A stretch of DNA of 54,545 bases, taken from the NCBI GenBank assembly GCA_022775905.1, contig JALFJX010000026.1:1-54545 (forward strand). The letters are read 5' to 3'. Under the pieces are notes generated by a model, which had not been told where the DNA came from, searched no databases, and saw only the letters and a program-made list of their open reading frames with translations. The position numbers were made by a program, and so were the translations under genes. Source of the stretch: Methanobrevibacter sp. Lineage in GTDB: Archaea > Methanobacteriota > Methanobacteria > Methanobacteriales > Methanobacteriaceae. Shown here piece after piece: positions 14,221 through 23,539 of this stretch (its first letter is position 1; each line of letters opens with the position of its first letter).

Positions 14221-14280
14221 AGATATTTATATAGTATGTTGTAGAATATATTGATGTAATTAAAAATTAGGTTCACCTAA
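14221..14280 (+). promoter_or_regulatory. Promoter with iron-box-like operator for the 29-aa peptide gene
   Basis: A TATA-like stretch (about 14224-14232) is followed by TTAGGTTCACCTAA at 14267-14280, an inverted repeat of the TTAGG-N4-CCTAA form seen in front of feoB. The operator would lie just after the predicted start of transcription. A similar sequence is the classic DtxR/IdeR box; which regulator binds here is inference. Confidence 0.6.
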
Positions 14281-14325: not shown

Positions 14326-14415
14326 ATGGCAAATAAATCTGAATGTTGTGAAGTTAATGATAAAAAAGAGAAAAAAAGCATTCTTAAAAGATTATGGTGC
14401 TTTTTTCGGATGTAA
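14326..14415 (+). CDS. 29-residue cationic Cys-containing peptide
   Basis: A very short ORF, but with the best ribosome site in this area: AGGAGG 8-9 bases before the ATG. The peptide begins MANKSECCEVNDKKEKKS and ends ILKRLWCFFRM. It has a Cys-Cys pair, a lysine-rich middle and a hydrophobic/aromatic tail with a third cysteine. The stop is followed by a T-rich stretch. An iron-box-like palindrome lies 46 bases upstream. I do not recognise a family. It might be a metal-related or membrane-associated regulatory peptide; that is speculation from composition and operator. Confidence 0.6.
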   Translation: MANKSECCEVNDKKEKKSILKRLWCFFRM

Positions 14416-20255: not shown

Positions 20256-20281
20256 AAATAAGTTTTTAAGAAAAGAGAGAT

Positions 20282-20324
20282 AATTGGTGTTAATTGAGGT
20301 TGAAAACACCAATTCGTTTTTTTT
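20282..20324. terminator. Hairpin with T-runs on both strands, copy A
   Basis: AATTGGTGTT (20282-20291) and AACACCAATT (20305-20314) form a 10-bp stem, followed on the plus strand by CG and eight T. On the minus strand it is followed by TCTCTC and T. It can end the secreted-protein transcript and also the candidate minus-strand RNA. Confidence 0.6.
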
Positions 20325-20456
20325 AGAAAATTTTGGCAGATAAATTTTCTATGTATTAAATTAGAAAATTGTGTAAAGCTAATTTAATACGGAAAGATAT
20401 GTATTTTTTTGGAGATTACATTATTTTTTGGCTAATAATGTTTTGAAGTGATGAAT

Positions 20457-20540
20457 TTAGTCTTACCTAAATGTATGTCATTTGTATTAAACTTTGTTTT
20501 TATAGTATATAATGGTTTGTATTTTTTTAGGTAAACCTAA
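20457..20540. promoter_or_regulatory. Iron-box pair around a TATA element, copy A
   Basis: TTAGTCTTACCTAA (20457-20470) and TTAGGTAAACCTAA (20527-20540) flank a TATA-like element at 20501-20513. On the minus strand the first site falls just past the predicted transcription start and the second lies upstream of the TATA box. Confidence 0.6.
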
Positions 20541-20585
20541 AATTTACTATTTCATTAAAATAATTTTTTTTAAAAAAGAGAGATA

Positions 20586-20618
20586 ATTGGTGTTTGGCTA
20601 TAACACCAATCAGTTTTT
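20586..20618. terminator. Hairpin with T-runs on both strands, copy B
   Basis: ATTGGTGTT (20586-20594) and AACACCAAT (20602-20610) form a 9-bp stem around a 7-base loop. On the minus strand TCTCTC and a T-run follow; on the plus strand CAG and five T follow. The stem is kept exactly while the loop differs from copy A. Confidence 0.55.
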
Positions 20619-20749
20619 CAGGGAATTTTTTGGCAGAATAAATTCCATGTGTATTAAATTAGAAAATTGTGTAAAGCTAATTCAATACGAGATATATATT
20701 TTTGGAGATTTCATTATTATTTGGATAATAATGTTTTGAAGTGATGAAT

Positions 20750-20833
20750 TTAGTCTTACCTAAATGTATGTCACTTGTATTAAAGTTTGTTTTTATAGTA
20801 TATAAAGGTTTGTATTTTTTTAGGTAAACCTAA
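20750..20833. promoter_or_regulatory. Iron-box pair around a TATA element, copy B
   Basis: TTAGTCTTACCTAA (20750-20763) and TTAGGTAAACCTAA (20820-20833) flank TATAGTATATAAA (20794-20806). The arrangement and spacing are the same as in copy A. Confidence 0.6.
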
Positions 20834-20915
20834 ACTTTTACTCTCCATTGTTTTTGAGTGAGAAATAGATATATAACGATTGTTATTATTTATATATAAA
20901 TGTTTTGGTATGGAT

Positions 20916-21002
20916 AAATATTTAAATACAATGAAATATTGATAGATTAGTGTTAAGGTTAGCCTAAATTAGCATTTGATAAAATTTTTTAGGCTAACAT
21001 AA
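20916..21002 (+). promoter_or_regulatory. feoB promoter with two iron-box-like operators
   Basis: A TATA-like stretch lies at about 20916-20927. TAAGGTTAGCCTAA at 20954-20967 sits at the predicted transcription start and TTAGGCTAACATAA at 20989-21002 sits in the leader. Both fit TTAGG-N4-CCTAA with one mismatch and closely resemble the known DtxR/IdeR box. Iron repression of feoB is the natural reading; the regulator is not in the window. Confidence 0.7.
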
Positions 21003-21032: not shown

Positions 21033-23042
21033 ATGAAAAAATTAATTGTGGGATTAGCAGGGAACCCTAATGTGGGTAAAACTACTGTTTTCAATCAATT
21101 AACTGGTATGCGTCAACATGTAGGTAACTGGCCGGGTAAAACTGTTGAAAGAGCAGAAGGTCACTTTGAACATGGTGATTATGGATATGATCTTGTTGAC
21201 TTGCCAGGGAATTATGCATTGAGTGCTCATACTATGGAAGAAATCGTCTCAAGAGATTTCATTGTAGATGATGACTCTGATGTGATTGTTAATGTGGTTG
21301 ATGCTGCAAATCTTGAACGTAATTTATATTTAACAGTTCAAATGATGGAATTAGGTGCTAACTTAGTTTTAGCAGTTAATATGAATGATTTTGCAAGAAA
21401 AAAGGATCACATCATTGATATGGAATTGATGAGTGAGCTTTTAGGATTTCCGGTTATTGAAATTAATGCTAAAACAAAGGATGGTTTTGAAGAATTATTG
21501 AATACTGTCGAAGAAGTAGCTGAAAATCCTAATGATTCAAGTGAAAAACTGTCATACAGTAATGATATTAAGGGCCATTTAGCAGAACTTCAGGAAGTCA
21601 TTGAACAGGATGATGACTTATTGAAGGTTCCTTCAGTTTGGACTGCTGTTAAATTATTAGAAAAAGATACAATAGTCATAGACAAAGTTCAACATTCTCC
21701 TCAAGGATCAAAAATCATGGTTGAAGTTGATAAGGTAAGTAAACATTTGTATGATGTTTACAGAGATGGTCCTGAGGAAGTTATTGCAAGTGCAAGATAT
21801 GCATTCATTGATGGTTTGGTGGCTGAAGCAGTTAGCAAGCCGGCTGTTGAAAAAGAAACTATGACTGATAAAATTGATAAAGTTGTAACCGATCGTATTT
21901 TGGCTCCATTTATATTTCTTATAATAATGTGGTTAATGTTTCAGGTAACATTTACTGTTGGAGCTCCATTCCAAGATTTGATTAGTCAATTGTTTGATTC
22001 ATTGAGTGCATGGGTAGGTACATTCCTTGGCGGTGGCCTACTTGAATCATTTGTATGTGATGGTATCATTGGGGGAGTAGGTGGTGTTCTTACTTTCTTG
22101 CCGATTATTATTTTAATGTTCTTGTTCCTAAGTATATTGGAGGACTGTGGTTATCTTGCAAGAGCTGCATTTACATTGGATAAGATTATGCACAAGATTG
22201 TCGGTCTTCATGGTAAGGCATTCATTCCTATGATTTTAGGATTTGGGTGTGGTGTACCTGCTATTATGGCAACAAGAACCATGGAAAATGAAGGGGACCG
22301 TATGCTTGCTATGATGCTTGTTCCATTCATGTCATGTACTGCAAGATTACCTATTTATGCAATATTTGTTGCAGCATTCTTCTCAGATAATGGTGGTAAC
22401 GTATTGCTTGCAATTTACTTGTTGGGTATTGTTGTAGCACTTGTTGTGGCAGCTATTCTTAAAAGAACAATGTTTAAAGGATTGTCAACTCCATTTGTTA
22501 TGGAACTTCCGACATACAAAGTGCCTTCCGTAAAAGGAGCATTATTGCATACTTGGGAAAAGGTAAAAGGATTCTTAAGAAAAGCAGGAACAATCATTCT
22601 TGTCTGTTCCATCATATTGTGGGCATTGCAGAACATATATCCTTGGGGAGGAAACGATCCTCAAATGAGTCTTTTGGGAATGATTGGTACAACAATCGCT
22701 CCAATATTTGCACCATTAGGATTTGGAACATGGCAAGCTGCTGTGGCTATTCTCGCAGGATTATCTGCTAAAGAAGTGGTTGTATCTACATTCGGTACTC
22801 TTGCAGGAATGGAAGGGGATGATGAGGCAGGAATCACTCATTTGATTCAAAATTCATTTACACCATTGTCCGGATTTTCATTCATGGCTTTTACTTTGCT
22901 TTATACTCCATGTATTGCAGTTATCGGTGCGATTAAAAATGAAACCAATGGTTACAGATGGGCGTTAACTATGTGCGGTATTACTGTAGTGACTGCTTAT
23001 ATTGTTTCATTCCTGATTTACAACATTGGTCTTTTCAAATAA
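21033..23042 (+). CDS. feoB: Ferrous iron transporter FeoB
   Basis: A 669-residue GTPase-permease. The N-terminal G domain has GNPNVGKTT (about residues 9-17), DLPGNYALS and NMNDFARK. A linker (to about residue 265) follows, then a polytopic membrane domain with the paired Gate motifs: ILGFGCGVPAIMATRTM and VPFMSCTARLPIYAIF. It takes up Fe(II) across the cell membrane. An AGGAG site lies 8 bases before the ATG at 21033; the in-frame start at 21027 is too close to that site. Two iron-box-like operators and the tandem RNA-like elements lie upstream; feoA follows with its own promoter. Confidence 0.97.
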   Translation: MKKLIVGLAGNPNVGKTTVFNQLTGMRQHVGNWPGKTVERAEGHFEHGDYGYDLVDLPGNYALSAHTMEEIVSRDFIVDDDSDVIVNVVDAANLERNLYLTVQMMELGANLVLAVNMNDFARKKDHIIDMELMSELLGFPVIEINAKTKDGFEELLNTVEEVAENPNDSSEKLSYSNDIKGHLAELQEVIEQDDDLLKVPSVWTAVKLLEKDTIVIDKVQHSPQGSKIMVEVDKVSKHLYDVYRDGPEEVIASARYAFIDGLVAEAVSKPAVEKETMTDKIDKVVTDRILAPFIFLIIMWLMFQVTFTVGAPFQDLISQLFDSLSAWVGTFLGGGLLESFVCDGIIGGVGGVLTFLPIIILMFLFLSILEDCGYLARAAFTLDKIMHKIVGLHGKAFIPMILGFGCGVPAIMATRTMENEGDRMLAMMLVPFMSCTARLPIYAIFVAAFFSDNGGNVLLAIYLLGIVVALVVAAILKRTMFKGLSTPFVMELPTYKVPSVKGALLHTWEKVKGFLRKAGTIILVCSIILWALQNIYPWGGNDPQMSLLGMIGTTIAPIFAPLGFGTWQAAVAILAGLSAKEVVVSTFGTLAGMEGDDEAGITHLIQNSFTPLSGFSFMAFTLLYTPCIAVIGAIKNETNGYRWALTMCGITVVTAYIVSFLIYNIGLFK

Positions 23043-23230: not shown

Positions 23231-23289
23231 AAAATATTTATATATTCCTTATGATAAAATATCAATTAAGAAATTTTTAGTATGCCTAA
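23231..23289 (+). promoter_or_regulatory. feoA promoter with weak iron-box-like site
   Basis: A TATA box (AAATATTTATATATT, about 23231-23246) precedes TTTAGTATGCCTAA at 23276-23289, a degenerate form of the box seen before feoB. The position fits a site at or just after the transcription start. Confidence 0.45.
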
Positions 23290-23311
23290 AAATTATCATT
23301 TTGGTGAGATT

Positions 23312-23539
23312 ATGAAAACCTTAAAAGATGCAAAACCTGGTGAAACAGTAACTTTAGTTAGATACCATAACACTGGGGATGTAGATTTAAGAAGACATTT
23401 ATTAGGTATGGGTTTCGTTAAAGGAGCTAAGATTACCCTTAAAAAAGTAGCTACTTTAGGTGATCCTATTGAAATGAGTATCAAAGGCTATGATATATGT
23501 CTTCGTAAAGAAGAAGCTGCAAATATTGAAGTTGAATAG
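23312..23539 (+). CDS. feoA: Ferrous iron transport protein FeoA
   Basis: A 75-residue SH3-like protein. MKTLKDAKPGETVTLVRY at the start and RRHLLGMGFVKGAKITLKKVATLGDPIEMSIKGYDICLRKEEA (fragments) are the FeoA pattern. It is a small cytoplasmic partner of FeoB. The upstream in-frame ATG at 23282 lies inside the operator, while the ATG at 23312 has a GGTGA site 5 bases away, so 23312 is chosen. It lies 270 bases after feoB with its own promoter. Confidence 0.95.
   Translation: MKTLKDAKPGETVTLVRYHNTGDVDLRRHLLGMGFVKGAKITLKKVATLGDPIEMSIKGYDICLRKEEAANIEVE

Follow-up and report, generated by a model that had tools for sequence, protein, structure and literature searches.

Small RNAs that spare iron are known in bacteria, where RyhB, PrrF, FsrA and IsrR have been described. 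PrrF1 and PrrF2, paralogous iron-controlled sRNAs that depend on Fur and Hfq, lie in tandem in Pseudomonas, and FsrA of Bacillus subtilis is repressed by iron and binds Shine-Dalgarno (SD) sequences through a C-rich motif. IsrR of Staphylococcus, which is about 174 nt long, controlled by Fur and conserved across one genus, has two metalloregulator boxes at its promoter and several stem-loops with a terminator, and its single-stranded C-rich regions pair with SD sequences, fdhA being among its targets (PMC9410917). No archaeal iron sRNA was described in the open-access literature that we searched. Few cells are as rich in iron as methanogens, and the genus Methanobrevibacter contains the main gut methanogens of humans and many of those of ruminants.

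We analysed a 54,545-nt stretch of Methanobrevibacter sp. DNA (contig JALFJX010000026.1; the window) in which two tandem elements lie beside feoB, and consider it quite likely that each copy is a gene for an iron-repressed, iron-sparing non-coding RNA that blocks translation of fdhA and probably of fwdF. According to this model, a DtxR-family repressor would, when iron is sufficient, occupy two TTAGGNNNNCCTAA boxes that frame the TATA element and start site and shut the promoter; under iron shortage the RNA would be made, ending at a hairpin with a U-rich tail. It would fold into five hairpins, with AAUCUCCAAAA left open between the second and the third, and this motif together with neighbouring A/U bases would pair with the SD region of mRNAs encoding iron-rich enzymes, above all fdhA (formate dehydrogenase alpha) and probably also fwdF (polyferredoxin of formylmethanofuran dehydrogenase). 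Pairing over the SD would block translation of these mRNAs, and iron would be spared. Formate and CO2 enter methanogenesis through formate dehydrogenase and formylmethanofuran dehydrogenase.

The element is best read as an archaeal iron-sparing sRNA that would work like IsrR, FsrA or PrrF without being homologous to them. With IsrR it shares paired boxes, hairpins, C-rich open regions, genus-wide conservation and fdhA as a target, here a predicted one; unlike the shorter, Fur-controlled bacterial RNA, it has DtxR-type boxes and multicopy genes, and an Rfam search and a pattern scan detected no sequence relation between the two. The likeness to PrrF proposed in a preliminary description of the locus stands for the tandem arrangement and for iron-box control, but the target side, with its anti-SD pairing, is more like that of IsrR or FsrA; unlike the Fur- and Hfq-dependent PrrF RNAs, the archaeal family has DtxR-type boxes and occurs both in tandem and scattered, at 1-10 matches per genome. 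FsrA resembles it in the anti-SD C-rich motif, but is bacterial, needs the small proteins FbpA, FbpB and FbpC and is not homologous. As regards descent from PrrF, IsrR or FsrA, no homology was found in Rfam (for the RNAs that have a model there) or in a pattern scan of GTDB genome contigs. Methanosarcina sRNA154, whose role concerns nitrogen and not iron, is likened to the element by description. It and Haloferax s479 are archaeal sRNAs of nutrient or metal physiology (PMC11549558 and PMC8155600, respectively); s479 concerns zinc rather than iron and is likewise likened by description (PMC8155600). LhrC of Listeria also occurs in several copies per genome, but differs in its envelope-stress control and its targets (PMC4132741).

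The features of the locus are as follows.

20262-20545, minus strand: copy 1 of the element
20565-20838, minus strand: copy 2 of the element
20266-20485, minus strand: putative copy 1 RNA with five hairpins, about 215 nt, predicted start about 20485-20482 (covariance model match 160.4 bits; folding z -6.5 against shuffled sequence)
20527-20540, no strand assigned: copy 1 operator 1, TTAGGTTTACCTAA on the minus strand, upstream of the TATA element (box searches, promoter alignment)
20500-20512, minus strand: copy 1 TATA element (TTATATACTATAA) with an upstream A-rich, BRE-like sequence (sequence; TTTATATACT conserved in homologs)
20457-20470, no strand assigned: copy 1 operator 2 (TTAGGTAAGACTAA on the minus strand), within the RNA 5' hairpin H1 (box search, alignment, covariation)
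20407-20417, minus strand: copy 1 invariant unpaired motif AAUCUCCAAAA, candidate anti-SD seed (alignment, conservation, pairing tests)
20353-20390, minus strand: copy 1 hairpin H3 with conserved loop UUUACACAAUUUUCU (inverted repeat; covariation helix 5)
20334-20340, minus strand: copy 1 hairpin H4 loop UCUGCCA, conserved (alignment, conservation)
20269-20313, minus strand: copy 1 terminator-like hairpin AUUGGUGUU/AACACCAAU, then UCUCUCUUUU (fold; covariation helix 7)
20569-20778, minus strand: putative copy 2 RNA, about 210 nt (covariance model match 163.4 bits; folding z -4.9 against shuffled sequence)
20820-20833, no strand assigned: copy 2 operator 1, TTAGGTTTACCTAA (box searches, promoter alignment)
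20793-20806, minus strand: copy 2 TATA element (TTTATATACTATAA) (sequence, promoter alignment)
20750-20763, no strand assigned: copy 2 operator 2, within H1 (box search, promoter alignment)
20700-20710, minus strand: copy 2 invariant unpaired motif AAUCUCCAAAA (alignment, conservation, pairing tests)
20570-20610, minus strand: copy 2 terminator-like hairpin and U-rich tail (fold; covariation helix 7)
20954-21002, no strand assigned: degenerate box pair (TAAGGTTAGCCTAA, TTAGGCTAACATAA) upstream of the divergent feoB (repeat and box search)
21033-23042, plus strand: feoB, ferrous iron transporter, divergent neighbour of the RNA pair
23282-23539: feoA, after feoB

Pairwise alignment showed the two copies to be 87% identical over 283 bp, with direct repeats in register (161 nt at 91% and 52 nt at 90%, plus flanks); each element spans about 280 bp with its promoter, the RNA alone about 210-220 nt. 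The duplication of elements of roughly this length was thus found where the preliminary description had placed it, as were the boxes, TATA elements and hairpins, on the minus strand, and its account of strand, promoter layout, terminator and approximate RNA start also holds. A third copy in the same genome, at the end of another contig, has both boxes, the TATA element and the AATCTCC motif, and pairing in its terminator hairpin is kept through base changes.

A covariance model of 225 positions, built from 21 copies, found 62 copies, and the alignment of these 62, fitted to the model structure, provides covariation for all five hairpins. We found that: (i) 35 of 49 pairs show two-sided change, against 17.5 in shuffled and 9-17 in slid controls; (ii) 208 cells carry such changes, against 50 and 18-55, respectively; (iii) 94.6% of cells are paired under the model structure, against 86.3 shuffled and 36-52 slid and (iv) covariation is seen in all seven helical segments, that of the terminator hairpin included. 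In an independent MAFFT/RNAalifold run, H3 and the terminator showed the same compensations, with A-U replaced by G-C in 16 rows and U-A by C-G in 6. Among unpaired positions, variation is lowest in AATCTCCAAA, in the loop of H3 around CACAATTT and in that of H4 (TCTGCCA); motif AATCTCCAAAA is present in 47 of the 62 copies, CTCCAA in 55, UCUGCCA in 53 and CACAAUUU in 56, and further CUCUCC/CUCCUC loops occur in 30. No ORF is conserved across the 62 copies, the sense-strand ORFs being short and variable, which bears out the earlier claim that no protein is conserved, and a protein-coding gene was rejected on this ground. Sequence and covariation together describe a structured non-coding RNA that stands alone, with a promoter and a terminator of its own.

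The family is present in 65 of 67 genomes of Methanobrevibacter sensu lato, including 37 of 37 high-quality ones, and in named Methanobrevibacter records too. The preliminary description had made the presence of hairpins and boxes in related genomes a test of its proposal, which it passed: across these 65 genomes the copies are often tandem, with structure and operators conserved. Beyond the genus, none of 72 genomes from 16 further genera of Methanobacteriaceae had the strict pattern, so that 1 genus of 17 was positive, with zero control matches; BLAST matches in the other 16 were marginal at most (best E 8.5e-7, most above 1e-5), and we take them for chance matches of AT-rich DNA, although more distant homologs may exist in these genera. 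Of the 46 stretches obtained in the scan of GTDB genome contigs, 42 were Methanobrevibacter, the remaining four being single unrelated matches that look like chance. Rfam 15 held no covariance model that matched the RNA family above its gathering score. A viral origin was rejected, the pattern being absent from viral contigs, and so was a cis-acting feoB leader, given the opposite strand and the unlinked copies. Among the genomes are G007 and G004, which we take to be M. smithii and M. millerae. In a millerae-like group (L047, L056, L058, L061) the copies, up to three in tandem, adjoin a rubrerythrin-like gene (named by eye). We also noticed a second RNA class, partly different but under the same box-TATA-box promoter and with loops such as ACTACACTCCGATT, TTACTCTCTTTC and ATAACTACTCTCACG, which often directly adjoins the first (L007:1391-, L011:1806+, L014:1801+, L021:1432-, L031:1421-, L046:3931+, L050:3902+, L053:3333+).

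Judged by sequence, the RNA promoter carries an iron-responsive operator. Perfect TTAGGTAAACCTAA boxes lie at operator 1 of both copies, and second boxes with one mismatch (TTAGTCTTACCTAA) at both operators 2. The window holds 9 box sites with at most one mismatch, against 1.7 expected and with none of 100 shuffles reaching 9, and the whole genome has 10 exact boxes, against 1 for a control pattern; the same box precedes both feoB genes of the genome. Across 71 elements, nearly every family promoter has the TTAGGNNNNCCTAA box 1 at 12-14 nt upstream of the TATA element (without exception among copies whose TATA element was correctly placed by the script), and about 90% have box 2 at 41-45 nt on its downstream side. 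Two operators had been proposed to frame the promoter; both boxes were found, with the refinement that box 2 is inside the transcribed region, where its palindrome helps to form the 5' hairpin. Box 2 is missing or degraded in six copies of the millerae-like group, and since some of the copies that have lost it retain the outer stem, RNA structure is independent of the operator. The controller may be a DtxR-family repressor, with an ORF of 237 aa on G000:C30 as the candidate: the genome encodes DtxR-family proteins, one of which has both DNA-binding and metal-binding Pfam domains. The best of these proteins scores nearer to the MntR than to the DtxR equivalog models of NCBIfam, below the cut-off for both, so the metal could be manganese or both.

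With regard to targets, AAUCUCCAAAA/AAUCUCC is the complement of an SD region, and the starts in the same genome that are preceded by TTGGAGATT include those of the formate dehydrogenase alpha subunit and the polyferredoxin, FdhA and FwdF being identified by curated models above cut-off. Pairing with mRNAs of iron-containing proteins is predicted strongly for fdhA and less so for fwdF. Among 465 leaders, which cover about a quarter of the genome and were drawn in part from stretches picked for TTGGAGATT matches, fdhA ranks first, at -22.6 kcal/mol with copy 2 and -21.2 kcal/mol with copy 1 (z -4.7; next best -19.2), these being energies that allow neither for mRNA structure as a competitor nor for an RNA chaperone. 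The predicted duplex comprises about 20 bp with one bulge and lies over the SD. When the CUCC core was kept and its flanks were shuffled, 0 of 2000 sequences reached the observed fdhA energy for either copy. In 15 of 15 genomes, each paired with its own RNA copies against background leaders reused from one genome, fdhA comes among the first 6 of about 465 leaders. The M. smithii group has ATTTGGAGA in its fdhA leader and TCTCCAAAT (UCUCCAAAU) in one RNA copy, changes that match one another and would fit co-change of the two partners. fwdF ranks high in the genome under study, and its pairing is strong in some other genomes and ordinary in others (rank up to 25). UCUGCCA, CACAAUUU and the other loops had no convincing target among the sampled leaders. 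FrhA-like and Xer-like genes appear as pairing candidates of the copy 1 terminator loop.

An iron-controlled structured RNA need not act on mRNAs; it might bind or titrate a protein, with the CUCC motif as part of the protein site. The nearly invariant UCUGCCA and CACAAUUU loops are what one would expect of a protein-binding scaffold and the many copies per genome fit a titrating RNA, but the unpaired CUCC and its flanks match fdhA far beyond the anti-SD core alone and extra CUCUCC/CUCCUC loops recur in about half of the copies, and we regard a protein partner as unlikely. Less likely still is that the signal is manganese or another metal instead of iron. Such a signal would suit the nearer MntR score of the best DtxR-family protein, itself under both cut-offs, but the boxes stand at two feoB genes, no recognised manganese transporter is found among the 10 exact sites and the predicted targets are iron-sulfur enzymes. 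We give very little weight to the idea of a DNA-level element (an operator array or mobile repeat) or of a leader or attenuator of a neighbouring gene: copies are dispersed as well as tandem and include rubrerythrin and prophage-like loci, as repeats can, but covariation extends through every helical segment to the terminator hairpin, the box-TATA-box promoter is fixed, the RNA points away from feoB and gene neighbours differ between copies. We favor, over these three, the iron-sparing RNA that would block translation of fdhA and probably fwdF.

The fdhA leader is also the subject of a separate finding. Its block TTTTGGAGATTATAAAATGGTTGA recurs in non-coding places in most genomes searched for it, and on the opposite strand of these blocks lies a second conserved RNA (RNA-B) with its own promoter and hairpin (L226, at G000:C12 around 43119, L221, L223, L225, L227 and L231; reverse strand of the TTTTGGAGATTATAAAATG match). 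RNA-B has an archaeal promoter and, over about 24 nt (TCAACCATTTTATAATCTCCAAAA), runs antisense to the translation start of fdhA, with which it is predicted to form a duplex of -37 to -42 kcal/mol; its hairpin (GGAAGTAG/CTACTTCC) leads into a C-rich run and a T-run. It is tandem in G010, apparently in other genomes too, and lies beside a dph5-like gene in some; no iron box was found at its loci, nor any Rfam match. The fdhA-like non-coding matches had been considered as sponges, a reading rejected because the other strand reads as an antisense RNA. Since RNA-B is perfectly antisense to the fdhA leader, conservation of that leader is not independent evidence for the iron RNA; the ranking of fdhA and the shuffle tests are independent of that conservation.

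Taken as a whole, the family probably represents the first archaeal iron-sparing sRNA regulon: genus-wide, multicopy, under DtxR-type control, shutting formate dehydrogenase and formylmethanofuran dehydrogenase at low iron, converging with IsrR on mechanism and on fdhA, and sharing the fdhA leader with an unrelated antisense RNA. Should its transcription be borne out, the family would be an archaeal counterpart of the iron-sparing sRNAs of bacteria and, if the reading is true, fdhA, paired operators and C-rich anti-SD pairing would be points on which the two domains have converged. A conserved RNA coupling the supply of iron to the use of formate and CO2 would connect iron with methane formation in a way open to experiment; with the covariance model, the seed motif and the targets at hand, the reading can be tested directly.

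Iron boxes were also seen at other genes. The second feoB (G000:C6:18467-18529, L035) has two exact boxes framing a TATA element and a leader of about 140 nt. Single exact boxes lie upstream of a pyruvoyl arginine decarboxylase-like gene (G000:C9:10211, L037), between the TATA element and the start of a BASS-like transporter gene (C9:203728, L038; both genes named by eye) and before a TATA element without a clear ORF (C30:15846, L044). In the window, a box at 14267-14280, about 41 nt downstream of a TATA element, has a promoter layout like that of the RNAs, and behind it a micro-ORF with a strong SD (14326-14415, plus strand) encodes a basic, Cys-containing peptide of 29 aa (MANKSECCEVNDKKEKKSILKRLWCFFRM), which recalls, as a suggestive parallel only, the small Fbp proteins that assist FsrA.
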